Under the pieces are notes generated by a model that worked only from the letters and a program-made list of their open reading frames with translations, was not told where the DNA came from and did not search any database. A stretch of 64,000 nucleotides of DNA from Anthracocystis setariae (lineage: Eukaryota > Basidiomycota > Ustilaginomycetes > Ustilaginales > Ustilaginaceae), in the NCBI GenBank assembly GCA_928724745.1, contig CAKMXJ010000026.1:1-64000 (forward strand), in the 5' to 3' direction. How positions within the stretch are numbered: position 1 is the stretch's first letter; every line of letters starts with the position of its first letter. This document shows, one piece after another, positions 754 to 27,741 of the stretch. The translations under genes and the position numbers were made by a program.

Positions 754-2535
754 ATGGCCAACACCCACCTTGTCATCAAGCCGTCCACCTACCCCCTGGC
801 TCTCATCAAAGGCAAGCAGGCCATCGCTGTCGGTCAGCTTGTGGACTACCTCGTCAAGATAGGCTGCAACACCGTGCGCCTCCAAGTCTACGGGCAGAAA
901 CGTCGCCTCCTCAACCTCAAGGCCAACATGGGCAACCTCAACCACCCGCTTGCCCACCTCAACACCTTCGACCTCGGCTACATGCACGACGACGGCCGCA
1001 TCAACCTGGTCCAGCCCGTGCGCTACAACAACCCAGGCATGACGCTCTACCCCATGCTCCTCCCTGTCGGCATGGGCTACGGATCGGTCCACATGGACAT
1101 CCCTCTCGGTCCTGTCACATACCAGGTCAAGGCGTACCCCCGTCTGGTGCACTGCATCAAGGCAGAGTCAGGCAACCAGGCTCTGTGGGCACCAGACACC
1201 GTCAGGAGGGCCAGGACCAGGCACACCAACCTCAAGAAACAGGTGGAAGCGATGGACACGACCTCGCGCTGGATGATGGGTGGACTCCGACTGGAGGTCA
1301 CTGTCACTGCGCCTACGCTGGTCCATGCCAAGGACATCATCAAGCAGACTCCTCTGCTCAACCTGGACGCCTACCTCCACAACAGGCTGGAGATCATGCA
1401 GCCCTTCCAGCTCCGGGTCATCTCGATCACCAAGGGAGACTACCTGGCCAACCTCAAGCACATGCTGGCCAAGGCGGAGACCCTGAGGGCCTTCATGGGG
1501 GACGACCACGCCAGGCTCAGGCCCCACAAGAAGCAGATCATCGTCGATCTCTTCAACGCCCTGGGCTGGAACACGGGCCGCATGAAGGTGACTGCGTTCA
1601 ATGCCGCAGACGCCTGGTGGCTCGACGACGTGGAGGAGGTGCAGGCGCCAGCGCTGGCGGCACAGGTGGAGCCAGAGAGGCCTGCCCTCTTGCTGGACCA
1701 CATCAAGGGTGTGCCAGCCATGAAGGCGCTCTTCCTGGCCATCAGGAGTCAGCTCCCCTGCCACTCCTGCCCCGAGCCCGGCTACACCTTCAGCTGGGAT
1801 GGCCATGTGAAGCAGTTCAGGCTGAAGTGCACCCAGTGTGGTGCCAAGCTGAACCAGAAGCAGGCCAGGGAGTTCATCCTCCACCAGGTGGCCTCGGAGG
1901 AGTTGGAGCTACCGGAGGAGTTCCAGGCGCCTCCGCCGGAGAGGTCGCCCACGCCAGCCAACGGGCTGCCGGACATGGAGCGCGTGCCCACTCCGGACGC
2001 TCCAGCTGCCACGACCACCATGCAGCTGCGTCCCAGGGCCACAGTGGAGCGCTCTCCAGCCCTGGAGGTGGTGGTGGAGCTGCAGTGGACTCCGATGCTG
2101 GAGTGCCACTCCCCCCTGCCAGCCATGGTGGCTGTGCCGGGTCTGCCGGGGGTCCAGCGGTCGACCTCCATTGCCAAGGATGGCAACTGCATGTTCAGGG
2201 CTGTCAGCCAGCATGTGTATGGCACCCAGGACAGGCACATGGAGGCCAGGGCGATGGCGGTGGAGGTCCTGCGGGGCAGGCCACACTTGGTGGCTGCCTA
2301 CGCGGTGGAGGGTGCCGGACATCTTGGAGCCAAGGCCTGGCTCACTGAGATGGCCAAGATGGGCACCTGGGGGGACGAGCTGGCCCTCCTTGGGCTGGCA
2401 GAGGCCTACAGCAAGGCGCTGTGGGTCTTCTCTGACCAGCATGGTCAGCACTCCACCTATCCTGGTGGAGACAGTGGGCCGTACCTGGGGCTCATCCACC
2501 TGGGTGGCAACCACTATGAGATCCTGAGCCTGTGA
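754..2535 (+). CDS. OTU-domain cysteine protease family protein, intact copy
   Basis: The 593-residue product has a C-terminal OTU-type domain. The nucleophile motif DGNC is at residues 476-479 followed by MFR, there is a WGDE motif about 70 residues later, and the catalytic His is in NHYE (His 587). OTU proteins typically cleave ubiquitin or similar conjugates; the substrate here is unknown. A Cys-x2-Cys pair at 336/339 and another at 359/362 suggest a zinc ribbon. The N-terminal 300 residues, with signatures GLRLEVT and DLFNALGW, are shared only with the other members in this window. The ATG at 754 is the first usable start, but the frame is open and homologous back to 694, after a TGA at 691, so the longer family N-terminus has probably been lost. 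Function is inferred from the motifs; whether it is expressed is unknown. Confidence 0.85.
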   Translation: MANTHLVIKPSTYPLALIKGKQAIAVGQLVDYLVKIGCNTVRLQVYGQKRRLLNLKANMGNLNHPLAHLNTFDLGYMHDDGRINLVQPVRYNNPGMTLYPMLLPVGMGYGSVHMDIPLGPVTYQVKAYPRLVHCIKAESGNQALWAPDTVRRARTRHTNLKKQVEAMDTTSRWMMGGLRLEVTVTAPTLVHAKDIIKQTPLLNLDAYLHNRLEIMQPFQLRVISITKGDYLANLKHMLAKAETLRAFMGDDHARLRPHKKQIIVDLFNALGWNTGRMKVTAFNAADAWWLDDVEEVQAPALAAQVEPERPALLLDHIKGVPAMKALFLAIRSQLPCHSCPEPGYTFSWDGHVKQFRLKCTQCGAKLNQKQAREFILHQVASEELELPEEFQAPPPERSPTPANGLPDMERVPTPDAPAATTTMQLRPRATVERSPALEVVVELQWTPMLECHSPLPAMVAVPGLPGVQRSTSIAKDGNCMFRAVSQHVYGTQDRHMEARAMAVEVLRGRPHLVAAYAVEGAGHLGAKAWLTEMAKMGTWGDELALLGLAEAYSKALWVFSDQHGQHSTYPGGDSGPYLGLIHLGGNHYEILSL

Positions 2536-3446
2536 TGTGCCTGACCTGACCCTATGTATATAGTATAACACAAAAAACCCAAAAAAATACCTTGTAAATA
2601 GTTAACATACCGTGTGAGAGTGTGCAACATAGCTTGAGCAGCCACCGTGTGGAATCGGTGAGACTCGGAGTCACTGTAGCTGCCACACCAGAGACCGCCA
2701 GAGCCTGCGACTTTGGCTCCAGTGTCTCCTATAGTGCGTCACCAACTTCCATTAAGGTAGCGTAGAGATCCAATGACTTCAACTTTCACGTATCGGACTC
2801 GTGTTGGTATCGGTGAGACACGTAAGTGATCATACCACCGCACACACTCCACCAACTGCTCTGAAACTCTGATGCTGTCCTCTCCTAGCATATAGAAGGA
2901 AGTCTTATTAGTGTAGCGTAGAGATGGGAGGAGGTCCACCTCCAACGTCCCTGACATGGTCACGTAGGGTCAGGGTTGGGTCGGGGTCAAAACCCGAGTC
3001 ACCGTATCTCAGCAACCAGGGGTGCACTCCCTCTGAAACTTCACTGCTAGCATCTCCTAGCATGTGTGAGCAAGTTTGATTAAGCTAGCGTGGAGATTGG
3101 AGGTGGTCCATTTTCCCACTTTCAAAGGGGGGACCCTTGGAGCTTTGACCAAAATCTCCAAAAACAACAAGTCGGCCATAGCTCCACAACCACTTTGCGC
3201 CCTTCCATGGGAGTTTCAGGGTGTTCATTTGGGCCTATTTGAGCCATAGTTTACTATGGGTGCGTCCCTGAAAAGTGAAATTTTTGCCAACCCGAGTCGA
3301 GTCGGGCCGATATTGATGGAGCCGTACAGCAACATTTTATTATGCAACTTGCGTAGGGTTAAGTAATCAAATATACCTATTTTGGGTAGATGAACAACTT
3401 TTATTAAGCAACCCTACCCTGTTTGTAAAAGCACACCCCCTTGTAA
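2536..3446. other. Downstream region of block X with three degenerate repeats
   Basis: I see no gene. A short A/C-rich run (AACACAAAAAACCC) follows the OTU stop. Three copies of a degenerate unit with the core TAGCGTRGAGAT occur near 2758, 2914 and 3088, each linked to 'CTCCTAGCAT' or similar text and a variable spacer. They may be decayed tandem repeats or regulatory sequence. Confidence 0.5.
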
Positions 3447-3497
3447 CCCTAACCCTAACCCTAACCCTAACCCTAACCCTAACCCTAACCCTAACCC
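3447..3497. repeat. Interstitial telomere repeat, 8 x CCCTAA + CCC
   Basis: Eight perfect CCCTAA units plus CCC join the right end of block X to a Ty3 pol gene cut inside RNase H. The orientation matches the array at 48-197, so the join is not a head-to-head telomere fusion. Confidence 0.95.
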
Positions 3498-5790
3498 GAG
3501 AGCCATGCTCCACCGGGCCTGCCGCCTGTTAAGTTGCCGTTTCGTTTGGAAATATTGGAGGGCCTGGTGGTCGGTGAGCACCTCAAACGGCTCCTGGAGC
3601 CCGTGGAGATAATGTCTCCATTCCTGCAACGCGTCCACGATCGCTAGGAGCTCCTTATCGTGTATTTCGTAATTGCGCTCTGCGGGCTGCATTTTTCGCG
3701 ACCAATAGGCTACCGGGTGAAGCCGGTGGGTCGAGGGCCGGGGTGCGGCCCCGGGGTCGGTTCCTGGGATGGCATACCACTGGGAGAGTACGGCAGCCAC
3801 GACGTAATCGCTAGCATCTGTCTCGACCACGGTAAGCCGGGAAGGGTCGAAGTGTTGTAGGATTGGAGCAGCAGTGAAGGCTTCTTTGAGGCGGGTGAAC
3901 GCTTCCCGCTCCCGAGGCTCCAAGTTGATCTTACCGGCGGCCTTGTTCTTGAGCCGATCGGTGAGCGGGGATGCCACCCGGGAGTAGTGGCGGATAAAAC
4001 GACGATAGAAGTTGGCAAACCCTAGGAAAACCTGGATGTCCCGGATGGTGACCGGTTCTGGCCAGGACGTCACCGCGTCCACTTTACCGGGGTCCATGCT
4101 GATCCCTCCGGGGCTGACCCGGTACCCGAGGAATTCGACGGACGAGGTCCTGAAGTCGCATTTTCCGGGGCACAGTACAGCTTGTGGTCCCGGAGGCGCC
4201 TTAGCACCTCCCGGACGTGAGAGGTGTGTTCTGCGGGGTCACCCGAAAATATGAGGATATCGTCCAAATACACTATCACCGTGACATCCAAGAGGTCGTG
4301 GAGGACGTGGTTCATAAGACGCTGGAAGGTAGACGGAGCGTTACATAGTCCAAAAGGCATAACTAAGTATTCGTAGCTCCCGTACCTGGTCCGGAAGGCT
4401 GTTTTCCATTCGTCGCCCTCCGCGATGCGGACCAGATTGTAGGCCCCCTTAAGATCTAATTTCGTGTAAATCTTAGCCCGGGAGAGGCAGTCCAGGTGCT
4501 CGGAGATCAGGGGAATCGGGTACTTGTCTTTGACGGTGATGCTGTTGAGGGCCCGGTAGTCGACGCAAAGGCGGAGTTTGCCATCTTTCTTCGGGACGAA
4601 GATGATAGGGGCGGCTGCCGGGCTCTTGGATGGCCGGATGAATCCTATCTCAAGCATCTTATCAAGATAGGTCTTAAGTTCCTCCATTTCTCTCCCGGAG
4701 AGAGAGTATAGCGCGCCATGGGGGATCTGGGCTCCGGGAAGGAGATTAATCTGGTGGTCGTGAGGCCGGCGAGGCGGTAGCACGTCGGCGTTGGCCTCAT
4801 CGAACACGTCCGAGAAGTCCCGGTACTCTTCCGGGAGGCCTGGGGCCCGGGGTGGCTCCAAGGGGCTAGGGTGGATAGCGAAACAGTTCTCCCCCGGGAC
4901 GGGATCCTGTCCATTGGTAAGCAGCGGAGGGCCGGTAGGTTGGACCGGGGTGGTAGCGTAACCCCCTCCTCCCGGGAGCGGGAAGTGCATGGTTTGGGTT
5001 TGATAGTTGAGTACTGGTTCGGTCCTTTCAATCCAATCCATTCCGAGGATGATATCATAATCGGAGATGCGGGGTGCGACATAGAATTGATGATTCGGGG
5101 TAACCGGGACTCCCGCAAGGCTGACCGATGCCCTGAGAGTGTGGGTAATAGCCTCTGAGCGGGAATCGAAAGTTGCCGTGCGCACCGGGGCCTGGAGGGC
5201 CTCCGGGACGCCCACCTCCCGCTCCAGCATGGCCCTGTCCACAAAAGAAGCGGTAGCGCCCCCGTCAATTAGGGCCCGGGCCCGGCACCCGGCCAGCGTG
5301 ACCCAGCACTCATACACCGGGATGCTGGGGTGTCGGTGTACCCGGATGGTGTCCCCACTGATCACCGGCTCGGCGGGAGGGATGAGGGCCGCTACGTGGC
5401 TCCTGAGATCCACGAGTCCCGGATCCTGGCGAAGTTGGGCGATGTTGGCCCTCACCGGGGGAGATTGAGGATGGTCGGTGGACTCGGGGTCCCACTCCGG
5501 GTCATAGGACAGGATGGAACGGTCATCAGGTAGGTCATCCTCGCCATTGATGGGTGTGGCTTCGTCTTCCCCGGACCACCGGGTCTCCGGGACGTCCGGG
5601 ACCAGGGGTTGGACCAAAAGCTCGCCGTTGGCGGGGTCCAGGATAGCCACGTTGGCCCGGAGGGGCCGAGTCTGGGCGGCCTTTGGGCAGTCCCGGACTG
5701 CGTGAGGGCCCCCGCACCCGTAGCAGAGGTTGTTTTCCCGACGGTACTTGCGGACCTCGTCGGGGAGCTCCCGGCTGGCCAGCCCGGGCG
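3498..5790 (-). pseudogene. Ty3/gypsy pol fragment A: protease, RT, RNase H
   Basis: Reading leftwards on the minus strand: a zinc knuckle of CCHC type (CYGCGG...HAVRDC), a retropepsin motif ALIDGGA, a reverse transcriptase with VPKKDGKLRLCVDYR and the YLDD catalytic box, and a Ty3-type RNase H with ETDAS, KELLAI and LTDHQAL. One T is missing in a T run near 4160 relative to copy B, which splits RT from RNase H. The frame ends at RRQARWS, where a normal pol would continue to integrase, and then runs into telomere repeat encoding alternating Gly-Leu. It cannot give a complete polyprotein. Confidence 0.92.
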
Positions 5791-6831
5791 GGGCGGATCA
5801 CCCCGCTTGTTGGGGGCCTCGCGACGGGGTACCGTCGAAATTGGGTGAGCGACCGCCCCGAAGTTCGGGCGGCGTTCCGGGCGACCCGGGGTGTCCGAGT
5901 GACCCGGGGTCACCAAGCCGATTTCGTACATTCGCTGCTCGGTTCGGATAGCGGTGTCAATGTACTCGTGCAGGTCGTAGGTCTCCACGTGGAGGAGCTT
6001 CTGCCGGAGGCTCTCCCGGAGGCTAAGCTGGAAAGTCGTCAGCAATTGCTGATTATCGGTAGCGTTAGCCTTGGTGGCTAGGGCCAAGAACTCGGCAGCG
6101 TGAGCGCTGACGCTTCCCGATTGGCGCAGCCGCTGGAGCTTGACCCGGGCGGTGTGTCCCGGGTTAGGATCCCCGTAGGTGCGGCGGAGATCGGCGCAGA
6201 ACGTGTCCCACTTGTGGAACAGGTTGATTTCCGGGCGGGCCTGGCGCAGGTTGCGGAGCCGCTCCCGGGGTACACCCGAGATATGGGCTAGGGCCCATAA
6301 GACACGGCGGGGGTCGGAGGGGAAGCGTGCCGGGTTAAGATCGAAATGGAGGGTGCATTGTTCGATGAAAGCCTCCAGCTCATCGCGCTTACCGTCCCAG
6401 GAGGGGGCGGCAACGCTAACTTCCGGGGTCTTGACCCGGGAAGAATGGTCCTCCGTAAGGTCCCAGTTGGGAGCCACGACGGGAGCTCCCGGGGGCACCG
6501 GCTGGGGATTGGACCCGCGCTCGCCCATAAGGCGAGTAGCGCGGGCGTACCTTTCCTCCGAGGTCTCGCGTTCCGGAAAGGGGTCTCCCGGGTGCTCCAT
6601 GGGCGGAAGGCCCGGTTCTGCCGGGGTCGGGACGGCGGGGTCGGGGGCTCGGCCGCTGTTGAGCAGCCGGATCTGGTCGGCCAATCCTCCGACCAGGGCG
6701 GTTAGGCTCTGCACGGCGGCGACTAGCCCCTGGACGGGGTCGCCTCCTGAATCGGGACTTTCGGGGGTAGGGCTGCCCGAACTCGTAACTGAGTCCGGGG
6801 AGCCGGGACGATGCTGGCTACGGGTTTGCAT
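5785..6831 (-). pseudogene. Ty3/gypsy gag, copy A
   Basis: The minus-strand frame begins MQTRSQHRPGSP just inside the LTR and includes a retrotransposon gag core (region around WDTFCADLRRTYGDP). The open frame extends to 5452, but past about 5785 it no longer follows the family: the zinc knuckle and protease continue in another frame. A frameshift in a GC-rich run, programmed or mutational, therefore separates gag from pol. Gag would form the particle shell and bind element RNA. Confidence 0.8.
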
Positions 6832-6878
6832 GGTAGCTGGAGTCTCCGCGTTGGTGGCAACGGGGAGGTCGATTGTAA

Positions 6879-7236
6879 TGTTATGCTCCTGGGGTCTTAG
6901 AACCTCGGAACGTGGCGGTGCGTCTGTGTTGAGGCCAGGGGCGTGGTACCGGGTGTTGCTCCCGGGATCGTTGCCAAGATAGCGGAGCGGGCGAGCGGGA
7001 GATCGGGAGAAGGTCTGATATTTCCACCTACTAGAGTGAGTAAGCTAAAATACAATCGACGTCCTGTCGTGAGTGTGGTGGACTTAGGACGTGAGATTAT
7101 GTGGCCTCCCGGATACCCCCCGGGTGATGCCGCAGTCTGCCCCCGATCCCCGATCCGGGCGTCATCGGGGGGACCACTCCTGCCCGCTCTGATACTGAAA
7201 CCAATCACTAACTCTCCCGATATCCCAATCATAACA
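6879..7236 (-). repeat. Ty3 5' LTR, copy A (358 bp)
   Basis: Bounded by TGTTATG and CATAACA. The same 358-bp sequence occurs as solo LTRs with target duplications at 53863-54220 and 56532-56889, which fixes the ends. It lies directly upstream of gag on the minus strand. No 3' LTR is present because the element stops at telomere repeat. Confidence 0.93.
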
Positions 7237-8068
7237 CATAGAAGCTTCGTTGCCCGCTTCAAAAAAGCTCGCTTGCCAAGGCACGCAGCTACCATCCTCA
7301 TCTTCCAAACACGCCGTTCTCAGTGCTCTTTGGCGACACCGGATGTGTTCGATCAACGTCATCGACACAATCCGACACCGCAAAAAAGCGAGGATTTTGG
7401 ACATTCTTGAACATGTTAGATTGCGTTGAGTAGCATGTTCTGCATTGCAAAAAAAGCGGAAATTTTCCGACATTTCCAGATTTGTTAGATTGTGCCAATT
7501 AACACAATCTGTCATTGCAAAAAAGCGAAAAAAAATTTCCGACACGGAAACTCGGAAAATCACCTCGGGGAGCTCGGAATGCGTCGGAATAGCTCGGGAA
7601 GCTCGGGAAGCTCGGGATCCTCCATGAGTCAAACTTGACTCCCCATCTGCGGCCCCTACGCTGCAGCTACTGCACCAAGCCTTGGCATGCCAAAGTGTAC
7701 CCATATAGTGCACACACTGACCCCAAGCAGCCCCCAAAGTTTGGCTTGCTCACTGTCGCCACCAGCCAACATGTACGCGCAGACGTACATTTACGTCAAC
7801 TACGCCCGCTACGGTGCAGCCACCGTACCTGGTGTTTGTGTTCCCAAGTCTATCTATATACTGCACAAACTGACATAAAAAAACCCCCAGGGTTATGCTT
7901 CCTCATCGACGCCCCCAGCCAAAGTGTACGCGTGGACCTACGTTTACGTAATTTCGCAAAAAAGTATGCAAACGATTTCGCCAGAATTTTCTGATCACAA
8001 TCTACAAGAAAAGAGCTTTCCAATGGTACCAAATGATCACCATAACTCACACGGGGACCCATATGTAA
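7237..8068. other. Block Y tail A: decayed ~65-bp repeats and a degenerate duplication
   Basis: No gene is recognised. About three diverged units of 65 bp at 7345-7560 share 'GCAAAAAAGCGRAAWTTTYCGACA', distantly like the 70-bp repeats at 12808-13200. Between 7690 and 7960 an imperfect duplication repeats 'TATATAGTGCACACACTGAC' / 'TATATACTGCACAAACTGAC' followed by CCAGCCAA and GTACGCG-TACGT motifs. Confidence 0.55.
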
Positions 8069-8101
8069 CCCTAACCCTAACCCTAACCCTAACCCTAACC
8101 C
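8069..8101. repeat. Interstitial telomere repeat, 5 x CCCTAA + CCC
   Basis: Five perfect units separate the two tandem block Y copies, in the same orientation as the other arrays. Confidence 0.95.
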
Positions 8102-10222
8102 GAGAGCCATGCTCCACCGGGCCTGCCGCCTGTTAAGTTGCCGTTTCGTTTGGAAATATTGGAGGGCCTGGTGGTCGGTGAGCACCTCAAACGGCTCCTG
8201 GAGCCCGTGGAGATAATGTCTCCATTCCTGCAACGCGTCCACGATCGCTAGGAGCTCCTTATCGTGTATTTCGTAATTGCGCTCTGCGGGCTGCATTTTT
8301 CGCGACCAATAGGCTACCGGGTGAAGCCGGTGGGTCGAGGGCCGGGGTGCGGCCCCGGGGTCGGTTCCTGGGATGGCATACCACTGGGAGAGTACGGCAG
8401 CCACGACGTAATCGCTAGCATCTGTCTCGACCACGGTAAGCCGGGAAGGGTCGAAGTGTTGTAGGATTGGAGCAGCAGTGAAGGCTTCTTTGAGGCGGGT
8501 GAACGCTTCCCGCTCCCGAGGCTCCAAGTTGATCTTACCGGCGGCCTTGTTCTTGAGCCGATCGGTGAGCGGGGATGCCACCCGGGAGTAGTGGCGGATA
8601 AAACGACGATAGAAGTTGGCAAACCCTAGGAAAACCTGGATGTCCCGGATGGTGACCGGTTCTGGCCAGGACGTCACCGCGTCCACTTTACCGGGGTCCA
8701 TGCTGATCCCTCCGGGGCTGACCCGGTACCCGAGGAATTCGACGGACGAGGTCCTGAAGTCGCATTTTTCCGGGGCACAGTACAGCTTGTGGTCCCGGAG
8801 GCGCCTTAGCACCTCCCGGACGTGAGAGGTGTGTTCTGCGGGGTCACCCGAAAATATGAGGATATCGTCCAAATACACTATCACCGTGACATCCAAGAGG
8901 TCGTGGAGGACGTGGTTCATAAGACGCTGGAAGGTAGACGGAGCGTTACATAGTCCAAAAGGCATAACTAAGTATTCGTAGCTCCCGTACCTGGTCCGGA
9001 AGGCTGTTTTCCATTCGTCGCCCTCCGCGATGCGGACCAGATTGTAGGCCCCCTTAAGATCTAATTTCGTGTAAATCTTAGCCCGGGAGAGGCAGTCCAG
9101 GTGCTCGGAGATCAGGGGAATCGGGTACTTGTCTTTGACGGTGATGCTGTTGAGGGCCCGGTAGTCGACGCAAAGGCGGAGTTTGCCATCTTTCTTCGGG
9201 ACGAAGATGATAGGGGCGGCTGCCGGGCTCTTGGATGGCCGGATGAATCCTATCTCAAGCATCTTATCAAGATAGGTCTTAAGTTCCTCCATTTCTCTCC
9301 CGGAGAGAGAGTATAGCGCGCCATGGGGGATCTGGGCTCCGGGAAGGAGATTAATCTGGTGGTCGTGAGGCCGGCGAGGCGGTAGCACGTCGGCGTTGGC
9401 CTCATCGAACACGTCCGAGAAGTCCCGGTACTCTTCCGGGAGGCCTGGGGCCCGGGGTGGCTCCAAGGGGCTAGGGTGGATAGCGAAACAGTTCTCCCCC
9501 GGGACGGGATCCTGTCCATTGGTAAGCAGCGGAGGGCCGGTAGGTTGGACCGGGGTGGTAGCGTAACCCCCTCCTCCCGGGAGCGGGAAGTGCATGGTTT
9601 GGGTTTGATAGTTGAGTACCGGTTCGGTCCTTTCAATCCAATCCATTCCGAGGATGATATCATAATCGGAGATGCGGGGTGCGACATAGAATTGATGATT
9701 CGGGGTAACCGGGACTCCCGCAAGGCTGACCGATGCCCTGAGAGTGTGGGTAATAGCCTCTGAGCGGGAATCGAAAGTTGCCGTGCGCACCGGGGCCTGG
9801 AGGGCCTCCGGGACGCCCACCTCCCGCTCCAGCATGGCCCTGTCCACAAAAGAAGCGGTAGCGCCCCCGTCAATTAGGGCCCGGGCCCGGCACCCGGCCA
9901 GCGTGACCCAGCACTCATACACCGGGATGCTGGGGTGTCGGTGTACCCGGATGGTGTCCCCACTGATCACCGGCTCGGCGGGAGGGATGAGGGCCGCTAC
10001 GTGGCTCCTGAGATCCACGAGTCCCGGATCCTGGCGAAGTTGGGCGATGTTGGCCCTCACCGGGGGAGATTGAGGATGGTCGGTGGACTCGGGGTCCCAC
10101 TCCGGGTCATAGGACAGGATGGAACGGTCATCAGGTAGGTCATCCTCGCCATTGATGGGTGTGGCTTCGTCTTCCCCGGACCACCGGGTCTCCGGGACGT
10201 CCGGGACCAGGGGTTGGACCAA
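8102..10222 (-). pseudogene. Ty3/gypsy pol fragment B, uninterrupted protease-RT-RNase H
   Basis: Here protease (ALIDGGA), RT (YLDD) and RNase H are in a single frame. The open frame starts at 10222 and runs on through the telomere repeat as Gly-Leu dipeptides to a stop at 7850, giving a 790-residue chimeric reading frame. Integrase is absent. An extra A near 10225 breaks the link to the upstream zinc knuckle. Enzymatically plausible RT but not a self-sufficient element. Confidence 0.9.
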
Positions 10223-10389
10223 AAAGCTCGCCGTTGGCGGGGTCCAGGATAGCCACGTTGGCCCGGGAGGGGCCGAGTCTGGGCGGCCTTTGGGCAGTCC
10301 CGGACTGCGTGAGGGGCCCCCGCACCCGTAGCAGAGGTTGTTTTCCCGACGGTACTTGCGGACCTCGTCGGGGAGCTCCCGGCTGGCCA

Positions 10390-11441: not shown

Positions 11442-11488
11442 GGTAGCTGGAGTCTCCGCGTTGGTGGCAACGGGGAGGTCGATTGTAA

Positions 11489-11846
11489 TGTTATGCTCCT
11501 GGGGTCTTAGAACCTCGGAACGTGGCGGTGCGTCTGTGTTGAGGCCAGGGGCGTGGTACCGGGTGTTGCTCCCGGGATCGTTGCCAAGATAGCGGAGCGG
11601 GCAAGCGGGAGATCGGGAGAAGGTCTGATATTTCCACCTACTAGAGTGAGTAAGCTAAAATACAATCGACGTCCTGTCGTGAGTGTGGTGGACTTAGGAC
11701 GTGAGATTATGTGGCCTCCCGGATACCCCCCGGGTGATGCCGCAGTCTGCCCCCGATCCCCGATCCGGGCGTCATCGGGGGGACCACTCCTGCCCGCTCT
11801 GATACTGAAACCAATCACTAACTCTCCCGATATCCCAATCATAACA
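11489..11846 (-). repeat. Ty3 5' LTR, copy B (358 bp)
   Basis: Identical in length to copy A, with TGTTATG and CATAACA ends; the few differences include G to A near 11603. Confidence 0.93.
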
Positions 11847-12678: not shown

Positions 12679-12684
12679 CCCTAA
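12679..12684. repeat. Single telomere unit at block Y / minisatellite junction
   Basis: One CCCTAA remains between block Y and the hairpin-ended repeat that follows. Another single CCCTAA at 12802-12807 lies on the other side of that repeat. Confidence 0.7.
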
Positions 12685-12801
12685 TTTGTATTAGACCGTC
12701 TTATTTGTATTGGACCGTCTTCCAATTTGAATACAGACGCGTCTTCCAATTTTCAAATGGACCGTCTTCCGGAGCTGCCTAGCTGGGGATAAGCATTAGA
12801 A
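12685..12801 (+). repeat. Hairpin-ended repeat S, copy 1
   Basis: Begins TTTGTATTAGACCGTC, contains the GGACCGTCTTCC motif several times, then an imperfect hairpin (12769-12788) and the constant end ATAAGCATTAG (12789-12799) before AACCCTAA. It is flanked on both sides by a CCCTAA unit, as if inserted within telomere repeat. Confidence 0.75.
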
Positions 12802-12807
12802 CCCTAA

Positions 12808-13373: not shown

Positions 13374-13381
13374 AACCCTGG

Positions 13382-13834
13382 ACCGAACTTCAAGGTACAG
13401 ACAACTACAGGATCACCTCTGGCTACATCAAGGGAGATGGCAACTGCCAGTTCAGGGTACTATCCAAGATCATCTATGGTACCCAAAGTAGCCATCAAAG
13501 GGTACGTTCAGAGGTGGTCAAGTACCTTGAACTTCACCACAACATGGTGGAAGCTATCCTGGCTACCAAGGAAGTACCCAAACACCCCTTCATATCCAAG
13601 GGGGAACCTCTGACAGTCAGAACCTACCTTTCTAAGATGGCCAGGCATGGTACATGGGGGGATGATGCTACTTTAAGTGCAGCAGTCTCCATCTTCAAGC
13701 TCAGTTTGGTGATCATCAACCCAGACAGATCCTACTTTGAAGTCAACAAAGTACCTGCTCCTACCCAGTGGCATGCCCTCTACTACACAGGCAACCACTA
13801 TGAGCTTGTACTGAAGTACAACTCAGAGGCATAG
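13382..13834 (+). pseudogene. 3' fragment of an OTU-family gene
   Basis: About 150 residues of OTU domain are open from the repeat junction: GDGNCQFR with the nucleophile Cys, WGDDATL, and GNHYELV with the catalytic His. It is closest to the copy at 21787-23759 (shared IINPD, WHALYYTGNHYELV). The N-terminal two-thirds is missing because the S repeat joins directly upstream. It lies head-to-tail with the next OTU gene (block X copy 2), about 0.9 kb downstream. Confidence 0.85.
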
Positions 13835-14165: not shown

Positions 14166-17100
14166 AAACTATACTTGGCACATACTTCAACTTCAAGTCA
14201 CCCAGCTTGGACTCCATCAGAACACCCCAGCCAGCATCCAAGTTTGAGCTTCAACCCTCAGTCAACCTACCCTCAACTTAGGTCAACCCCACCCTCAACT
14301 TCGGTCAACCCTACTTGGACCCCATCTTCATACCTGGGCTGGCCGAACTTGGACCTAGGTTCAAGGTACCTTGGTGTCAACTTTGAACCCCTGTAGCACC
14401 GCAACCACTTGCAATTTCACCACTCTTGACATGTGTACAGCCTCTCTATAGGTTCTTCTAGCTGTTCCACACATTGCCTCCACCCTTCCTCCGCTTTGAA
14501 AAAAAAATATTCTTCCCCGACAGAATCCTGGCGGCAACTTCAAATGCCCGTATCTCCGTCAATAGAGTAAACTTTACCCCAAACTCAATGGTTTCTGGCA
14601 GCTCTCAGCCAGCTCTACAACTCTCATTAGTACAGATTTGATGGTGAAATTCATAGTCGCTGAGGAGAGCCTTGTAACCTCTTCAAGATTGCACCCGACC
14701 TCAAGCAACCTCTCCTCAAGATCATGGCCAACACCCACCTTGTCATCAAGCCGTCCACCTACCCCCTGGCTCTCATCAAAGGCAAGCAGGCCATCGCTGT
14801 CGGTCAGCTTGTGGACTACCTCGTCAAGATAGGCTGCAACACCGTGCGCCTCCAAGTCTACGGGCAGAAACGTCGCCTCCTCAACCTCAAGGCCAACATG
14901 GGCAACCTCAACCACCCGCTTGCCCACCTCAACACCTTCGACCTCGGCTACATGCACGACGACGGCCGCATCAACCTGGTCCAGCCCGTGCGCTACAACA
15001 ACCCAGGCATGACGCTCTACCCCATGCTCCTCCCTGTCGGCATGGGCTACGGATCGGTCCACATGGACATCCCTCTCGGTCCTGTCACATACCAGGTCAA
15101 GGCGTACCCCCGTCTGGTGCACTGCATCAAGGCAGAGTCAGGCAACCAGGCTCTGTGGGCACCAGACACCGTCAGGAGGGCCAGGACCAGGCACACCAAC
15201 CTCAAGAAACAGGTGGAAGCGATGGACACGACCTCGCGCTGGATGATGGGTGGACTCCGACTGGAGGTCACTGTCACTGCGCCTACGCTGGTCCATGCCA
15301 AGGACATCATCAAGCAGACTCCTCTGCTCAACCTGGACGCCTACCTCCACAACAGGCTGGAGATCATGCAGCCCTTCCAGCTCCGGGTCATCTCGATCAC
15401 CAAGGGAGACTACCTGGCCAACCTCAAGCACATGCTGGCCAAGGCGGAGACCCTGAGGGCCTTCATGGGGGACGACCACGCCAGGCTCAGGCCCCACAAG
15501 AAGCAGATCATCGTCGATCTCTTCAACGCCCTGGGCTGGAACACGGGCCGCATGAAGGTGACTGCGTTCAATGCCGCAGACGCCTGGTGGCTCGACGACG
15601 TGGAGGAGGTGCAGGCGCCAGCGCTGGCGGCACAGGTGGAGCCAGAGAGGCCTGCCCTCTTGCTGGACCACATCAAGGGTGTGCCAGCCATGAAGGCGCT
15701 CTTCCTGGCCATCAGGAGTCAGCTCCCCTGCCACTCCTGCCCCGAGCCCGGCTACACCTTCAGCTGGGATGGCCATGTGAAGCAGTTCAGGCTGAAGTGC
15801 ACCCAGTGTGGTGCCAAGCTGAACCAGAAGCAGGCCAGGGAGTTCATCCTCCACCAGGTGGCCTCGGAGGAGTTGGAGCTACCGGAGGAGTTCCAGGCGC
15901 CTCCGCCGGAGAGGTCGCCCACGCCAGCCAACGGGCTGCCGGACATGGAGCGCGTGCCCACTCCGGACGCTCCAGCTGCCACGACCACCATGCAGCTGCG
16001 TCCCAGGGCCACAGTGGAGCGCTCTCCAGCCCTGGAGGTGGTGGTGGAGCTGCAGTGGACTCCGATGCTGGAGTGCCACTCCCCCCTGCCAGCCATGGTG
16101 GCTGTGCCGGGTCTGCCGGGGGTCCAGCGGTCGACCTCCATTGCCAAGGATGGCAACTGCATGTTCAGGGCTGTCAGCCAGCATGTGTATGGCACCCAGG
16201 ACAGGCACATGGAGGCCAGGGCGATGGCGGTGGAGGTCCTGCGGGGCAGGCCACACTTGGTGGCTGCCTACGCGGTGGAGGGTGCCGGACATCTTGGAGC
16301 CAAGGCCTGGCTCACTGAGATGGCCAAGATGGGCACCGGGGGGACGAGCTGGCCCTCCTTGGGCTGGCAGAGGCCTACAGCAAGGCGCTGTGGGTCTTCT
16401 CTGACCAGCATGGTCAGCACTCCACCTATCCTGGTGGAGACAGTGGGCCGTACCTGGGGCTCATCCACCTGGGTGGCAACCACTATGAGATCCTGAGCCT
16501 GTGATGTGCCTGACCTGACCCTATGTATATAGTATAACACAAAAAACCCAAAAAAATACCTTGTAAATAGTTAACATACCGTGTGAGAGTGTGCAACATA
16601 GCTTGAGCAGCCACCGTGTGGAATCGGTGAGACTCGGAGTCACTGTAGCTGCCACACCAGAGACCGCCAGAGCCTGCGACTTTGGCTCCAGTGTCTCCTA
16701 TAGTGCGTCACCAACTTCCATTAAGGTAGCGTAGAGATCCAATGACTTCAACTTTCACGTATCGGACTCGTGTTGGTATCGGTGAGACACGTAAGTGATC
16801 ATACCACCGCACACACTCCACCAACTGCTCTGAAACTCTGATGCTGTCCTCTCCTAGCATATAGAAGGAAGTCTTATTAGTGTAGCGTAGAGATGGGAGG
16901 AGGTCCACCTCCAACGTCCCTGACATGGTCACGTAGGGTCAGGGGTTGGGTCGGGGTCAAAACCCGAGTCACCGTATCTCAGCAACCAGGGGTGCACTCC
17001 CTCTGAAACTTCACTGCTAGCATCTCCTAGCATGTGTGAGCAAGTTTGATTAAGCTAGCGTGGAGATTGGAGGTGGTCCATTTTCCCACTTTCAAAGGGG

Positions 17101-17416
17101 GGACCCTTGGAGCTTTGACCAAAATCTCCAAAAACAACAAGTCGGCCATAGCTCCACAACCACTTTGCGCCCTTCCATGGGAGTTTCAGGGTGTTCATTT
17201 GGGCCTATTTGAGCCATAGTTTACTATGGGTGCGTCCCTGAAAAGTGAAATTTTTGCCAACCCGAGTCGAGTCGGGCCGATATTGATGGAGCCGTACAGC
17301 AACATTTTATTATGCAACTTGCGTAGGGTTAAGTAATCAAATATACCTATTTTGGGTAGATGAACAACTTTTATTAAGCAACCCTACCCTGTTTGTAAAA
17401 GCACACCCCCTTGTAA
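14166..17416. repeat. Block X copy 2
   Basis: Second copy of 196-3446. Unlike copy 1, its left edge continues without a break into the spacer that follows the OTU fragment at 13382-13834, which probably shows the original gene-spacer-gene order. Confidence 0.93.
14724..16503 (+). pseudogene. OTU-family gene, copy 2, frameshifted before the catalytic His
   Basis: Matches the gene at 754-2535 almost base for base. A missing T near 16338 (CACCGGGG instead of CACCTGGGG) shifts the frame at the WGDE motif, so the 590-residue frame ending at 16496 has DGNC but loses WGDE and NHYE. The original frame's stop is near 16503. A protease from this copy should be inactive. A sequencing error in the G run is possible, although the missing base is the adjacent T. 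Confidence 0.85.
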
Positions 17417-17434
17417 CCCTAACCCTAACCCTAA
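17417..17434. repeat. Interstitial telomere repeat, 3 x CCCTAA
   Basis: Three perfect units after the right end of block X copy 2. This is the most internal multi-unit telomere array in the window. Confidence 0.93.
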
Positions 17435-20355: not shown

Positions 20356-21786
20356 GGTGAAGGTTGGAAGAGGATGGGATGGTGGTGGTAGGGAAGGAAG
20401 ATGGAAAGGAAGGTTGGAGGGTTCAAATAGACATGGATGGACGTACAGAAGGCCTATTTAATGCCCACAGGGTGTTAGAGTGGATTCTGCAAAAGAGTTT
20501 GCAAAAAACGGTTGAGTTTTGGCTGAGATACAGCCGTAGAAGGGTCAAAACACAACCATTTTGGCCCGTTTTTGGCTCATTCTGACTGTGACCATCCAAA
20601 GAGCCTTGTGCATTGCTCATGTGTTGCATTCCAGCACATTACAGTGGATATAAATGGTATTGAAGTGGGCCTGGACAGTGGCATGGACTTTGCCAATGTT
20701 ACTTGAAGTCTACCCCAAGTTGCCTGGGGTTACCACCCACCTTGGCCCATTGTACATGAACTTGTGCTCCACAAGAAGTGCCTGAAGCTCTGTTCAACCT
20801 CTTTGAGCCTAGCTTGAGGGTACCTTCCCTAACCTTGTATGTTCTGGTCAAGTGCGGGTCCCACTGTTTGTGTACGCACAACTTGGTCCCAACCTGAGGT
20901 CAACCTGACTTGACCCCCACTTAAGCTGCTTGCACTGGAGTTTGGCAAACCTGTAGTATCTTGTCCTAGGTATCAGCCCTAGTATGGATGAGAGTGTGCC
21001 CATGTACAACCCAGTAGATGCATACCTGAACTTACTGGTAGCAACTTTGAACAAGTTCAAGATGGACCAAAGTACCCTGCATGCTAGGTTGCTCTTCACT
21101 TCCTGCACTTGGAGTGCAGCCAACCTCCCTTCAGCCTGGGCATCTTATGTTCACACCCCTCTTGGGTAGGTTCAACTGAGGCTGGACCCGTGTTCAAGTT
21201 AGGAAGGTGTAGATACATTCCACCTTGCCAGTGGCTGAACATGAAGGAAGGTGGGCACCAAGACTCTTCAACATGGGGTTACCAAAGGTCAAGTAGCTTT
21301 ACAGAAGTACAACTATTGTCAAGTGCAGGCCAGCTGAAGCCCATACCAAGGTATAGTGAGATATTGCCTCACTTGAGGTGGTTGTCCTAGGTCCGCTGGT
21401 ATCAAACTTTAGGAGAAGTTGTGTGAGGTGAGGCTCCACTTCAGTGGAGCTGAAGTTCCCTCCAGTAGCATGCAATTGTCTGAAGTTGCCCTCAATTGAA
21501 CCAAGGTTGGACTGTGGTACCCCCAGGTGAAGTTTCTGAAGGTATGTTGAAGTGCAGGGATCTGCTGTACACCTGCAGGAGCATCCCTTGGCAAACTTCC
21601 GCAATCAAATTCGCATTTTTGACCCTTGTGCAATGTTGTTTTGCATCCTGCCTTCCTATTTGTCACTCCTCCACATCTGAAGTTCCTCCCTCACTTCCCA
21701 GAGGTTGACCGGCAGTTCCACCAGTACCAGCACTTCAGCTTCCACTTCCTCCCCTTTCCCTCTTCTTCACCTTACCATTCCCCAAG
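20356..21786. other. GTAC-rich spacer upstream of OTU gene
   Basis: No gene seen. From about 20640 the sequence is rich in GTAC and in TTGAAG/CTTCAA strings, a composition shared with 13380-14160 and 21787-24190. It may be decayed OTU gene array or spacer. Confidence 0.4.
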
Positions 21787-23759
21787 ATGGTCTGGACCTA
21801 CAAAGGTCAGGAACTTGGGGATACCCAGTTCCCAGTTCAGTGGGACCCACCTTATCCTACCTTGGACAAGGATGTAGATGGGTTCAACTTCACCATAGAT
21901 CCTATCAACTTGGGGGACTACTTTGGAACCTTCACCCAAGTTCAGCTGGCCTCACATGCTCCTGCAGTTAGGGACCTTGACTACTACTCCAACTGGGTAT
22001 TCTTAGGTTCAGGTCCAGCACTCCTGAAGATACCGCCCCAGTTCAAGGTACCTCTACTGGAGGAGTTCTCACATACCCATACTATGCAGCCCTCCAACTT
22101 CCCCACAACTATGATAGAAGGTACCCAGCATGTTACCTTGCGCCAACTTGCCCAGAACTTGGCCAGGGTTGGCTGCACTTCAGTCAGGGTTCAAGCTTAT
22201 GGGATGAAGTACAACCTCCTCCTAGCTGAGGATCTCCCCAAGGACTACTACCCGGAACCAGCATCCCCTAAGTATTCACAACTTCTGGGACATTGGCCTC
22301 AACTTCCCCCCAACCTCACATCATCTTGGCCAAACCTCACAACATCAGCAAAGATAGTTGTACTACCTATCCTATGCTCATGCGCCTAGGGGAAGGGTAT
22401 GGTTCCCTGCAGTTGAACTGCCATTACCGGGGGGACAACTTCAAGATCAAGATGTACCCCCTACTTGTACATGCTATGAAGGCAACTTCCGGCAAGTTCA
22501 ACAACTTTGACCCTAGGACCATCCATACTTGTAGGTTGAAGGAGACCAACTTGCTGAACAGGCAGCTCAAGTTGTCCAACTTCAGCCCACTTAAACTGGG
22601 GGGACTTAGGGTGGAGGTAACTTCCTTTGCACCTAGCCTGGAAGAAGGTATGTACAAGGTACTGGAAGGCAGCTTCTTGGAACTTGAAGAGTGGTTGAAC
22701 CCCACCAAGCCCCACATGAAGGCACTTCAAGTAAGGCTCAAGTTCATCAAGAAGAGGGACTACCTCAGCAACTTCAACTCCCTCCTCAGTAAAGCTCAGG
22801 AACTGGGGGTCTTCAGAGGTAGAAACAACAAGAAACCTGGGAAGGTACGTAGGTACATACTTCAGGACCTGTTCAATGCCCTAGGTTGGAACCAAGGAAC
22901 TAGGACCAACCGCTGGGAAGGTGAGGCTGGTCCTTGGTGGAACTGGGAGCCAACCCAGGAAGACATAGACTCAGCCTTGGGAACCGAGGTACAACCTGAT
23001 GCCTACTTCAGGGATCCCCTACTTGAAGAGTCCCACCTGCAGGAGATCCTCAGATGTGTCAAGATCTTCAAGAGGGGTACCAAGTTCAGGGCAGTTGTAC
23101 ATGGGGAAGATGGGAAGAACCTTACCATTGGCTCCACTACATCCAAGTTGGAGTTGGGCAAGTTCCTCTTTGACAAGTACAAGTATCAGTGGACCAAGTA
23201 CTGCTACCTTGTAGAGGATCCCTTCCCCAGTTCATCCCAGTCCACAAACTTGGACCAGGAGTTGGCCAAGTACAACTTCTGGGAGACTGAGGCAATAGGT
23301 CCAATGGGCCTCTTCCATGAACTTCAAGGTTCCAAGAAGTACATGGTAACCCAGGGGTACATCAGGGGAGATGGTAACTGCCAGTTCAGAGTGGTGGCCA
23401 AGGTAGTATATGGTCACCAGAAGTTCCACACAAGGGTCAGGCAAGAGGTGGTCAACTACCTACAAGATCACAAAGATATGGTGGAAGCTATCCTAGCTGC
23501 AGATGGACCTCAGGTAAGTGCCTTCTCCAGACCTAGAACTGTGGATACCTACCTGGAAGGTATGCGGAACTTGGGGCACTGGGGGGATGATGCTACCTTA
23601 AGTGCAGCAGCAAGTATGTATGCCCTCAGTTTGGTCATCATCAACCCAGACAGAACCCACTTTGAACTTAACAAAGGATCAGGGGAACTTCAGTGGCATG
23701 CACTTTACTATACTGGCAACCACTATGAACTGGTGCTCAGGGTACCTCACTCCACTTGA
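21787..23759 (+). pseudogene. OTU-family gene, third member, two frameshifts near its middle
   Basis: The first frame (21787 to about 22250) carries the family N-terminus: NWVFLGS, FKVPLLEEF and GCTSVRVQAYG. The match then moves to a second frame for about 50 bases (HPLSIHNFWDIG, around 22258-22300) and to a third frame from about 22310 to the stop at 23759 (TTYPMLMRLG, GGLRVEVTSFAP, DLFNALGWN). The OTU domain is complete, with GDGNCQFR, WGDDATL and GNHYELV. The zinc-ribbon cysteines of the 754-2535 protein are not kept. Two single-base indels, one next to a C run, would explain the shifts; an unrecognised intron is less likely. Confidence 0.8.
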
Positions 23760-23833
23760 CCCTCACTTACCCCCCCACTTCCCTGTAGATAGCCTCCCTT
23801 GTAGATAGTTGCACCCAGGTTGTAGTCCACTGG

Positions 23834-24189: not shown

Positions 24190-24504
24190 CTTCAGGAAGA
24201 GGCACGTTTGACCCGCACTGCAGCCGTCACCAGGCATCTGAGCATCCTGGCGCTTTGCATACATACTCTCTGAACATCCCTCTGCACCTTGTATTATGGC
24301 TTCAACATCATTGAAGCACTTCCCAAAAAAAAAAATCTTCCCCGAGAGAATCTGGCTGTGGATCTTTGACGGTCTGTATCTCGGTGACCACGGAACATGG
24401 TTCCGTCAGACTTTGCATACATATAGTTCAGACCTATATCTACAACTCCCATTAGTACAGATTCTTGATCAAAGTGGTCTCCGGCGGGGAGGACCTTGTA
24501 ACAC
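24190..24504 (+). other. Upstream region of a further OTU gene copy, cut off
   Basis: This stretch resembles 430-705 of block X: an A run before ATCTTCCCCGAGAG, GTATCTCGGTGA, ATTAGTACAGATT and GACCTTGTAAC. In block X this leads into the OTU gene, but here a 69-bp minisatellite unit starts immediately after CCTTGTAAC. It is evidence of a former head-to-tail OTU gene at this site. Confidence 0.6.
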
Positions 24505-24692
24505 GTGTTGTGACACGTTCTGAACAAGCAAAAAAAGCAGGAATTTCGGACGCGTCCGGTCTAATCTGTATTGGACCGTCTTAATTTGTATTGGACCGTC
24601 TTCCAATTTGAATACAAAACGCGTCTCAGATTTCAATTCCGATTTTCAAATGGACCGTCTTCCAGAGCTGCCTAGCTCCGGATAAGCATTAG
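24505..24692 (+). repeat. Hairpin-ended repeat S, copy 3
   Basis: One 69-bp unit, two TTGTATTGGACCGTCTT units, a hairpin with one mismatch (CCAGAGCT / AGCTCCGG, 24662-24681) and ATAAGCATTAG ending at 24692, followed by AACCCTAA. Confidence 0.82.
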
Positions 24693-24900: not shown

Positions 24901-27741
24901 TCAACGTGAATGGACTACAATTTCATAGGCACCGCTATCCAACTTGACTACACCAAGGTACGGGCCAGAGCTGCCAACCGGGATGACCTGGCAAGAATAC
25001 AACTTCCGTGACAGCTGAATGTGTCCGATGCTGACATTGAATGCTCCAGCTACACCGTGCAGCAGCAGCACCTCCTCCTGCTTGGTCAACTCTCCATACC
25101 GTTCTGCCAGCTTCTCCAGTAGCGTGTATCCTGCAACTCTGCTCCGTGTGCCCAAGTGGTTCTCCACCGCCTGCCTGTTCTCTGCCAGCCATGCCACTGC
25201 TTGCTCCCTGATCTCCACCGGGTCTGGATTACCACGCCGGTCCTCCAGCAGGAAAGTGAGGCACTCCATCAGTGAGTCCCGTAGTTCTGCAAAGCCAGTG
25301 GTACGGCAGAGACCTGCCAGCTCCCTGCGTTGACTGAGCTGCCGCACAGGATTATCCTCCGGTACTGGTGCAAAGACCATGCGTGCAGGATCCACCACCA
25401 GTGCACGGATGTTGACTCCCAGCTGATTGCGTGTTGCCAGCGTGGCAATGTGGGAACGGAATTTCTGAGCGCCAAGTGAATTTCGGCATTGGCTGCACCG
25501 GACACGGAATTGATTTGCACCTCCACACAGCGTGTAGGTGCCCACACAGTGGCAGCCTTGGCACTGCACATGAAGCTGCACGTGTGTGAACAGGCTACGT
25601 GTGCCAATCGTAGTGTTGAAGTGCTCCAGCTCCTGTGCAATGTCCAGAGCTGCATCAGAGCTAGCCCACCACGCAGTTGGACTGTCCAATGCTGTAGGTC
25701 TCCTGCCAGGATGCCAGCCCATGGCATTGTACAGGTCAATGACGGCCTGCCGCTGCAGCTGAGAGGATGCCTTTGAGTGGCAACCACGGAAGATCTGCTT
25801 CTCCTCTGCCAATGCAAGCAACGCATTCAGGTCTGCAAACATGGCTGCCTTGGTGATTGTGTGCGTGAGGAGCTGCTGATCCCCAGCTGCTGCAGTGAAC
25901 AAGTGCCGGTGGTCCAAGAATTTGCTGGCCACGGCAATGTCCCTGGCTGCCTGCATGGTGGGGGCCTGTACCGTAACCTCCAGGCGTACTCCGCTTCCCA
26001 CCTCTGGAGCTGTGTTGACAATGCGGTCCCTCCAGCTCTGCAGCCTGGCAATGCGGTCCTGCACAATCTTGATGCTCATAGGCTGGCCTGCCTGTCCAGC
26101 GCCTGCAGCTCCTGCTTTGAGCAGATGCGTGAGCTTGGGATACCCTTTGAAATGAGAAATCCCATCCGGTCTGGATTTCCACTTCAATTCCACGCTGCCA
26201 AAGCCTCTGCCCACGCGCAGTGCCATAGGGTACTGCTTGTATTTCCCCTTTTTGGACTTGGGTGCAATGAGCGTGATGCAGCCTGTGTCCACTGTGCAGC
26301 CAATGTCAAAGACATTGGCATTACGCAAAGGGTGCTCACTGAGCATGGCTGGATCCAGGAAGCGGTCAATGGGCACCTTGATGCCATAAGCTCCCATGCG
26401 GATGCTCTGGCAGCCAATGTCCTGCAATGCTTCCACCATGATGCCCACATCCACACGCAGCTCTCCATAGGTGAGCACTGTGGCGTGCTCAGAGGGAATG
26501 AGGATGGCACGCTGTGGAGGCTGCTGCAGGCGTGCAATGAGCGGCAGCTTGAAGCGTGGCTCAAAGCGGAAATTAACCTTGAGCTCAGCAAAGTACACCC
26601 AATGATTGAACAGCTCAGCGTCCTTGAAATCAGGGGAGTAGCTGCACAAGCTCAGGTAGCAGCCAGCAGGGTAGATGCGCAGCAGGTCTGCGGGAGAGAT
26701 GGTCACCGCAAATGAATCCACATCGTACTCCACACAGCCATTCCAGTCAGTCACCGGGTTGAGAGCTGGAATGGGCGGCAAGGTTGCCCGCTCCTGCTGC
26801 CTAGCACTGTCAAGCAGGCTTACAGGCGGTGGTGCTGCTGGCTCCATGTCATCCAGATCCATTGCTGGGAGCAAGACCACAATGCCATCCACCGGCATGT
26901 CCTCCACTTCCTCCAACTGCAACTCTGGCTGCTGTTGCTGTTGCTCCGGCTGCTCTGGCACAGGTGCTGGCAGCTGCGGCAGTGTCTCCCCCTCTGCCTC
27001 TTCATCTGATGGGTCCTCCAATTCCTCCACCTGCTGCTCCAGAGACAGAATGGGGAAAGGATCCGGCACTTCACCAGAGGACGCGTCAGGCTGGAAAATA
27101 TTTTCCATTTCCTCAGCCTCTGGCTCCTGTGCCGGCACTAGCCCAGTCTCTCCGTCTGCCTCCTCTCCCAATTCTGCTGCCGCTTCCAGCTCAGCCTCTG
27201 CCTCTGCCTCCGCAAAGACCACATCCAAGTTGTCCTCCACAAGCGTCAGGGGAAAATCCTCTGAGCTCTCCACGCTAACCTCTGAATTTGAATTGGAATT
27301 CAATTCAATTGAACCCTCCTCTGCTAGAATTGCTGGATCCAACATGGCAAGGAAAGGGTTGGCACGTTGCTCTTCTGCCGCAGGCGCAGTTGCAAGCTCT
27401 GGACTCACCGCATCTTGAGTTACTGCATGTTGAGAGACTGCTGATGCTGATATTGTTGTTGTTGTTGTTGTTGCTGCTGGTGCTGATGCTGCCGGTGCTG
27501 GTGCAGGCGTAGGTTGAGCCTGACTTGATTGAGTTGCTGCACCTTGACATTTGCGGATGCCTTGATGCTTGAGGAGTGCTGCCGCATTCATCACAACTTG
27601 TCCGCAAGTACATGCTACAAGTCCTGCAGCTGCCGCTGCCTCTGGACTGACAGGCACACCACTGTGAGTCTTGCGCAAGTGGTTGGTGATGTTGCTTGCG
27701 GCATAGGCATAGTTGCATACAGGGCAGGTGATCTGTGACAT
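24901..27741 (-). CDS. Long OTU-family member with C2H2 finger and degenerate OTU domain
   Basis: The frame is open from 27975, but sequence above 27741 is minisatellite; MSQITCPVC at 27741 is the better start (946 residues). Domains: a C2H2 finger (C6, C9, H21, H26) and a second, irregular one (C44, C46, H59, C65), a pairing reminiscent of fungal OrsD-type N-termini; an acidic Glu-rich stretch about residues 130-370; the family core with FKLPLIARL, SGVRLEVTVQAP and DLYNAMGWHPG; a Cys pair array like the zinc ribbon (CQGCHC, CSQC); and a C-terminal OTU-like region. There DGNC is replaced by ELRDS and NHYE by GAYE, so catalysis is probably lost. It is the only complete-looking long member and may be a binding rather than a cleaving protein. 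Confidence 0.8.
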   Translation of the reverse strand: MSQITCPVCNYAYAASNITNHLRKTHSGVPVSPEAAAAAGLVACTCGQVVMNAAALLKHQGIRKCQGAATQSSQAQPTPAPAPAASAPAATTTTTTISASAVSQHAVTQDAVSPELATAPAAEEQRANPFLAMLDPAILAEEGSIELNSNSNSEVSVESSEDFPLTLVEDNLDVVFAEAEAEAELEAAAELGEEADGETGLVPAQEPEAEEMENIFQPDASSGEVPDPFPILSLEQQVEELEDPSDEEAEGETLPQLPAPVPEQPEQQQQQPELQLEEVEDMPVDGIVVLLPAMDLDDMEPAAPPPVSLLDSARQQERATLPPIPALNPVTDWNGCVEYDVDSFAVTISPADLLRIYPAGCYLSLCSYSPDFKDAELFNHWVYFAELKVNFRFEPRFKLPLIARLQQPPQRAILIPSEHATVLTYGELRVDVGIMVEALQDIGCQSIRMGAYGIKVPIDRFLDPAMLSEHPLRNANVFDIGCTVDTGCITLIAPKSKKGKYKQYPMALRVGRGFGSVELKWKSRPDGISHFKGYPKLTHLLKAGAAGAGQAGQPMSIKIVQDRIARLQSWRDRIVNTAPEVGSGVRLEVTVQAPTMQAARDIAVASKFLDHRHLFTAAAGDQQLLTHTITKAAMFADLNALLALAEEKQIFRGCHSKASSQLQRQAVIDLYNAMGWHPGRRPTALDSPTAWWASSDAALDIAQELEHFNTTIGTRSLFTHVQLHVQCQGCHCVGTYTLCGGANQFRVRCSQCRNSLGAQKFRSHIATLATRNQLGVNIRALVVDPARMVFAPVPEDNPVRQLSQRRELAGLCRTTGFAELRDSLMECLTFLLEDRRGNPDPVEIREQAVAWLAENRQAVENHLGTRSRVAGYTLLEKLAERYGELTKQEEVLLLHGVAGAFNVSIGHIQLSRKLYSCQVIPVGSSGPYLGVVKLDSGAYEIVVHSR

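Follow-up and report, generated by a model that had tools for sequence, protein, structure and literature searches.

The analysed window comprises the first 64,000 nucleotides of contig C25 (CAKMXJ010000026.1) of Anthracocystis setariae, whose assembly holds 21,467,743 bases in 36 contigs. Five gene copies or pieces, which an initial annotation had assigned to a telomere-linked OTU protease family, were all found at the given positions (Table 1). The N-terminal core that had been ascribed to all five is present in four of them, the piece at 13382-13834 consisting of the OTU domain only. The motifs DGNC and NHYE are kept in four copies as described, in the 14724 copy with NHYE in a different frame. 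From the analysis reported here we propose to reinterpret this protease gene family as a telomere-anchored mobile element with a core domain that is probably catalytic.

The copies had been said to range from intact through frameshifted to catalytically dead. Frameshifts are indeed present and the gene at 24901-27741 has a degenerate OTU domain, but none of the four OTU-bearing copies is intact. This includes the copy at 754-2535 (copy 1), which is truncated at its 5′ side: its frame opens just past the CCTTG|TAACC junction at 705-709 and, counted from the first methionine, it is 86 residues shorter than its 99% identical counterpart (712-residue frame, locus L002), which lies at the end of contig C20. 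The frameshift in the 14724 copy is a one-base indel next to a run of G and is possibly a sequencing error. The copy at 21787-23759 belongs to a subfamily other than that of copy 1 and is frameshift-broken; the other end of the same contig has an open A4 frame of 683 residues (L023). The B1 gene at 24901-27741 represents yet another lineage and retains 14 of 14 checked core residues. Elsewhere in the genome the unbroken frames of these subfamilies include, besides L002 and L023, L016 (725 residues) and L025 (764 residues).

Table 1. Coordinates of the features in the window (positions 1 to 64,000 of contig C25)
Feature	Position	Strand	Remarks
Leftover sequencing adapter and barcode	1..46	+	Abuts the telomere repeat on its outer side
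Terminal telomere array, ACCCTA x25.2	47..197	+	
5′-truncated A3 element, 3′ untranslated region only, last letters GAGCCTTG	198..704	+	46 genome matches to 200-706, right end fixed
TAACC, 5-nt telomere seed linking two elements	705..709	+	
5′-truncated A1 element, last letters CCCCCTTG	710..3443	+	67 genome matches to 2540-3440
Copy 1 frame: truncated core, zinc ribbon, OTU	754..2535	+	Frame open from 694
CxxC...CxxC zinc-ribbon-like motif	1759..1839	+	Visible in the translation; Pfam zinc matches weak
OTU domain, DGNC and NHYE	2170..2532	+	Pfam E 5.6e-8; OTUD5/OTUD1 sequence matches
Interstitial telomere array (TAACCC)9	3444..3497	+	
Interstitial telomere array (TAACCC)6	8066..8101	+	Within the tandem-duplicated retroelement
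OTU-only piece of a 5′-truncated A3 element, tail reaching 14674	13382..13834	+	
Duplicated block: A3 tail, TAACC, A1 element, telomere array 17414-17434	14166..17434	+	99.94% to 196-3464
A1 copy, one frameshift	14724..16503	+	Duplicate of copy 1
A4 copy, two overlapping frames, one frameshift	21709..23759	+	
A4 element 3′ end: last CCTTG base 24498, then TAAC	24498..24502	+	
B1 gene, full-length core, degenerate OTU, directed toward the telomere	24901..27741	-	
B1 N-terminal core, input for the structure model	25633..26751	-	

Read inward from the chromosome tip, the telomere is followed by a truncated A3 tail up to GAGCCTTG, TAACC, a truncated A1 element up to CCCCCTTG, (TAACCC)9 and a truncated retroelement. 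The 5′ flank of copy 1 is the 3′ untranslated region of subfamily A3; the A3 gene at L016 and L018 continues into the same sequence. Window positions 1-46 are a stretch which we take to be Oxford Nanopore native barcode 07. The start of contig C8 (L039) has letters identical to it and the start of C24 (L055) a longer form, and at C25 and C8 these adapter letters were retained in the assembly directly outside the telomere repeats. If this identity is right, the end of C25 is a physical chromosome end. At least three perfect telomere repeats occur within the first 600 bases in 7 of the 35 other contig starts, and several more open with shorter ones.

A genome search with copy 1 gave at least 101 matches grouped into at least 64 places, which are lower bounds, as 74 of the 90 candidates were scored. 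On the 25 contigs longer than 100 kb, all 52 places lie within 40 kb of a contig end, 47 of them within 25 kb, compared with an expected share of 6%, and 31 within 10 kb, and 31 of the 50 ends of these contigs bear a copy. This confirms the proposed telomere linkage and shows that, within this genome, the homologs are not mostly internal. The places are read away from the nearest end in 33 cases and toward it in 31. On a tree including 16 copies from this genome the members of A1-A5 all read away from the end (7/7), those of B1-B4 and A6 all toward it (9/9). The orientation is therefore constant per subfamily, which differs from the expectation under random insertion. Subfamily B4 (L014, L017, L019, L021) comprises core proteins directed toward the telomere. 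The supposition of a fast-evolving family was supported. As a measure of purifying selection, the ratio of nonsynonymous to synonymous substitution rates (dN/dS) is 0.13-0.37 in 13 of 14 pairs, values that are rough since dS is mostly above 1, and 0.68 for the close B4 pair L017/L019. The protein family is common to Ustilaginomycetes and Tremellomycetes, with homologs in Trichosporon, Tremella and Kwoniella and the nearest named relatives in Kalmanozyma brasiliensis, Pseudozyma flocculosa, Ustilago hordei, Ustilago loliicola and Testicularia cyperi.

The elements have a fixed 3′ end and a ragged 5′ end. The A1 tail (2540-3440) has 67 matches in the genome with right ends at 889 (40), 901 (23), 899 (3) and 859 (1) and 42 different left starts; for the 46 matches of the A3 tail (200-706) the right ends are 507 (31), 478 (13) and 477 (2), with 14 left starts. 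Judged by coordinates, none of these matches is farther than 28 kb from a contig end. In A1, A1b, A3, A4 and A5, the subfamilies traced to their end (A2 was not), the last bases are CCTTG, with TAAC(CC)n directly after them. Toward the chromosome end lies the 5′ side, which is cut at many differing points, and adjoining elements stand head to tail, linked by telomere repeats of often only 4-8 nt. Among 71 distinct CCTTG|TAAC junctions the repeat measures 4-8 nt in 32, 9-18 nt in 21 and more, up to 60 nt, in 18. The right flank was identified for 39 junctions and is an A element in the same orientation in 33, the retroelement in five and B1 in one. By their last 12 bases the element tails fall into 15 types, two of them telomere-like. 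The OTU-bearing copies act like a telomere-attached mobile element more than like an ordinary duplicated gene.

Because the junction search had used the CCTTG motif itself, the survey of telomere arrays was repeated independently of it. The retrieved loci of this genome, partly picked around known matches, contain 50 distinct arrays of at least 12 nt (two of them terminal), of which 31 follow CCTTG, five ATTAG, four CTATG and the rest other sequences. Taking the first-listed instance of each, all 50 are in the orientation of a chromosome end. Two further fixed ends were seen before telomere arrays, GGGGATAAGCATTAG|AACCCT (five arrays) and CCCCCTATG|TAACCC (four arrays), at loci L036, L112, L031, L115, L006; L008, L009, L117. 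These ends suggest further kinds of telomere-anchored element.

A Helitron-like rolling-circle transposon with an OTU domain, already disfavoured, should obey the Helitron rule of a CTRR 3′ end. The elements end with CTTG, and a hairpin at this end was rejected as a general feature after folding 12 tails (z from -1.76 to 0.92). Pfam searches of the element proteins gave no match to Helitron Rep, HUH Rep or helicase, nor to a known transposon class. Although a T follows the 3′ end and OTU reading frames occur in Helentrons (PMC4067079, excerpts), we consider this origin highly improbable.

The junctions could also have been made by a non-autonomous telomeric retroelement, whose RNA ending in CCUUGUAACCC would anneal to the telomeric G overhang and be copied by a reverse transcriptase acting in trans (LINE or telomerase), the core binding RNA or telomeric DNA. 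The anatomy is indeed that of MoTeR and of the Fusarium element FoTeR, in which the outward 5′ end, TAACCC after the 3′ end and the excess of truncated copies are attributed to target-primed reverse transcription (PMC12857005, excerpts). The short telomere seeds would suit priming, MoTeR2 provides a precedent that lacks reverse transcriptase (PMC7367193, excerpts) and at least 150 RVT_1 matches are present in the genome (150 of 206 candidates scored). However, no telomeric reverse transcriptase with the same 3′ end was found. The element proteins, with the upstream region covered to about 1.2 kb, have no RVT match, and at the right ends of C18, C20 and C25 none of the 150 scored RVT_1 matches falls into the stretch from the unbroken copies to the contig end. 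In addition, the two-element chain (196-3464, 14166-17434) was duplicated as one, which would need a read-through transcript and is easier to reconcile with the copying of DNA than with one transcript, and the enzyme-like core would be left without a role. A retroelement is thus possible, if on the unlikely side.

DNA copying is the essence of another explanation, the passive spread of an ordinary subtelomeric gene family, comparable to TLH helicases, by erosion, telomere healing and break-induced replication via interstitial telomere repeats. Erosion, healing and break-induced copying are documented in the MoTeR arrays of Magnaporthe (PMC7367193, excerpts), multi-element blocks were copied together here, and the B lineages are conserved despite having no active OTU. 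Frames of about 1620 residues with a Helicase_C match occur near the ends of C6, C7, C10, C15, C18 and C26; these are presumably telomere-linked, TLH-like helicases, and their sharing of the same subtelomeres would agree with passive spread. What passive spread leaves unexplained is the constant CCTTG|TAAC terminus, preceded by different sequence, in subfamilies with about 40-60% protein identity. Furthermore, the repeat in 32 junctions (at most 8 nt) does not suffice for homologous invasion, unless initially long tracts have since shrunk. The CCTTG end common to such distant subfamilies, together with the many junctions of 4-8 nt, favours active end joining over passive copying, and we regard passive spread as possible but rather unlikely, about as probable as the retroelement.

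In the window a retroelement is duplicated in tandem (3462-8074 and 8066-12684, about 4.6 kb, 99.8%), both units being cut at the same point, with RVT_1 matches at 4166-4597 and 8720-9202. With its telomere caps this duplication resembles a chromosome break that had healed before being copied. Tandem repeats of 20-21 bp with the motif GGACCGTCTT are located at 27806-28335, 12684-12770, 13203-13283 and 24562-24602; upstream of the B1 gene they are partly read in frame.

The Pfam OTU family (PF02338) is matched above the cut-off by 754-2532 (E 5.6e-8), 13382-13831 (E 2.6e-10) and 22272-23756 (E 3.8e-10); the piece 14724-16316 stays under the curated cut-off (E 4.9e-4) and a search with 24904-27741 gave no match. 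That the domain is a true OTU fold was borne out by structure prediction, the model of P0001, a 77% identical homolog, being predicted to contain it. The catalytic motifs DGNC and [NQ]HYE are found in the A lineages. They are not retained in B1-B3, where the OTU is degenerate, and the B4 frames carry no OTU motif. Of 74 homologous proteins, 63 have the core but no precomputed OTU, many of them from short contigs. That the family is at root an OTU protease family is therefore not supported, and we dropped the protease as its defining trait and the whole story: the most widespread part of the element is the core. Against this stands that the OTU of the A lineages is conserved at least as well as the rest of the protein, with higher identity in 5 of 5 pairs and dN/dS of 0.26-0.44 versus 0.27-0.34.

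In the alignment of the core the residues D12 (68/70), D149 (76/76), Y204 (74/75) and E258 (76/76) follow each other in this order, giving a near-invariant pattern D, D, Y, RxE with ten more polar positions. In RepDE the residues D46, D142, Y191 and E214 come together. The core here is enzyme-like and probably catalytic. The leading fold matches of the structure model were Rep_trans first and then TBP, the match being weak, and the core may cut and join DNA. An attempt to prove kinship with Rep_trans by sequence failed. In a Pfam search of 26 members with E up to 10, Rep_trans (PF02486) was not hit, and further Pfam searches likewise gave none. With hhalign the core reached P 0.4 against Rep_trans; the experimentally linked pair Rep_trans-DUF7845 likewise failed (P 0.8), and the reversed control gave 0.27. 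Sampling of Rep_trans yielded three matches in 149 Bacillota genomes and one locus in each of two viral scans; the Pf1 phage replication protein, tried as a further source, has no Pfam match.

Taken as a whole, the best explanation in our view, to which we give about an even chance, is that the OTU genes ride on a family of telomere-anchored mobile elements. The 3′ end of a new copy would be joined to the free G-strand (...GGGTTA-3′) at a chromosome end, the copy would then be copied or delivered outward from there, often incompletely, and would finally be capped by telomerase. Less surely, the joining might be done by the element's own core (TBP-fold, Rep_trans-like), which would cut GTTA/CAAGG in the donor via its tyrosine and pass the strand to the telomeric 3′-OH. 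The OTU might play an accessory part, stripping ubiquitin off proteins that act in repair, in replication or at telomeres, similar to what was proposed for the OTU reading frames of Helentrons. In its most specific form, a transposon for telomeres free of reverse transcriptase, with a eukaryotic Rep_trans-like (TBP-fold) tyrosine nickase fused to an OTU protease, cutting GTTA/CAAGG at its 3′ end and transferring the strand to the 3′ overhang of another end, this scheme is a tentative and rather improbable proposal. Three routes come into consideration, namely strand transfer carried out by the core, trans-acting reverse transcription, and erosion with healing and break-induced copying, and the evidence that bears on the choice among them falls short of proof.

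All telomere-targeting elements known to us work by reverse transcription. Here, such an element is present at 64 places or more in a 21.5-Mb genome, and its coding part consists of an unnamed conserved domain and an OTU. Joining of DNA to telomeres by the core, if confirmed, would amount to a new mechanism by which ends are extended and would place the Rep_trans group in eukaryotes; if true, the Rep_trans-like reading would make it the first eukaryotic member of that group of nickases. If the core is not a joiner, a protein family has still been defined, for which the precise ends of the elements and the conserved residues allow a direct test of the question, and it bears on how fungal chromosome ends remain variable.

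The listed titles and abstracts on OTU genes in connection with telomeres, subtelomeres, transposons, Ustilago or Cryptococcus mention no such element, which is not proof of its absence. The mitochondrial homing endonuclease remnant at Ustilago maydis telomeres (PMC7593156, excerpts) was compared and does not resemble the OTU/core family. Compared with OTUD-type deubiquitinases, the putatively active OTU is here fused to a new core and degenerate or missing in several lineages. Rep_trans is described as restricted to bacteria, with archaeal relatives found in 2026 (PMC13107129, excerpts). With the Rep_trans/MOBT nickases (PF02486) and the archaeal Rep-Arvir (DUF7845), which head its VIA list, the core has the order D, D, Y (+2 basic), RxE in common, whereas sequence similarity is not detectable and the fold match is weak. 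The telomere-linked RecQ helicases (TLH) of smuts are likewise a subtelomeric multigene family; the element proteins differ in having no helicase domain in Pfam searches, and the elements in their precise 3′ junctions. Helentrons also have an OTU alongside a rolling-circle replication protein, but in separate reading frames, with HUH Rep, helicase and endonuclease and with T-rich targets (PMC4067079, excerpts). The non-LTR (long terminal repeat) retrotransposons MoTeR and FoTeR code for a reverse transcriptase, whereas we found none here besides core, zinc ribbon and OTU. Their architecture (PMC12857005 and PMC7367193, excerpts) is that of A1-A5 (the A2 3′ end not being reached): confined to telomeres, with the 5′ end outward and TAACCC after the 3′ end, in head-to-tail arrays with many truncated copies and with helicase genes nearby.
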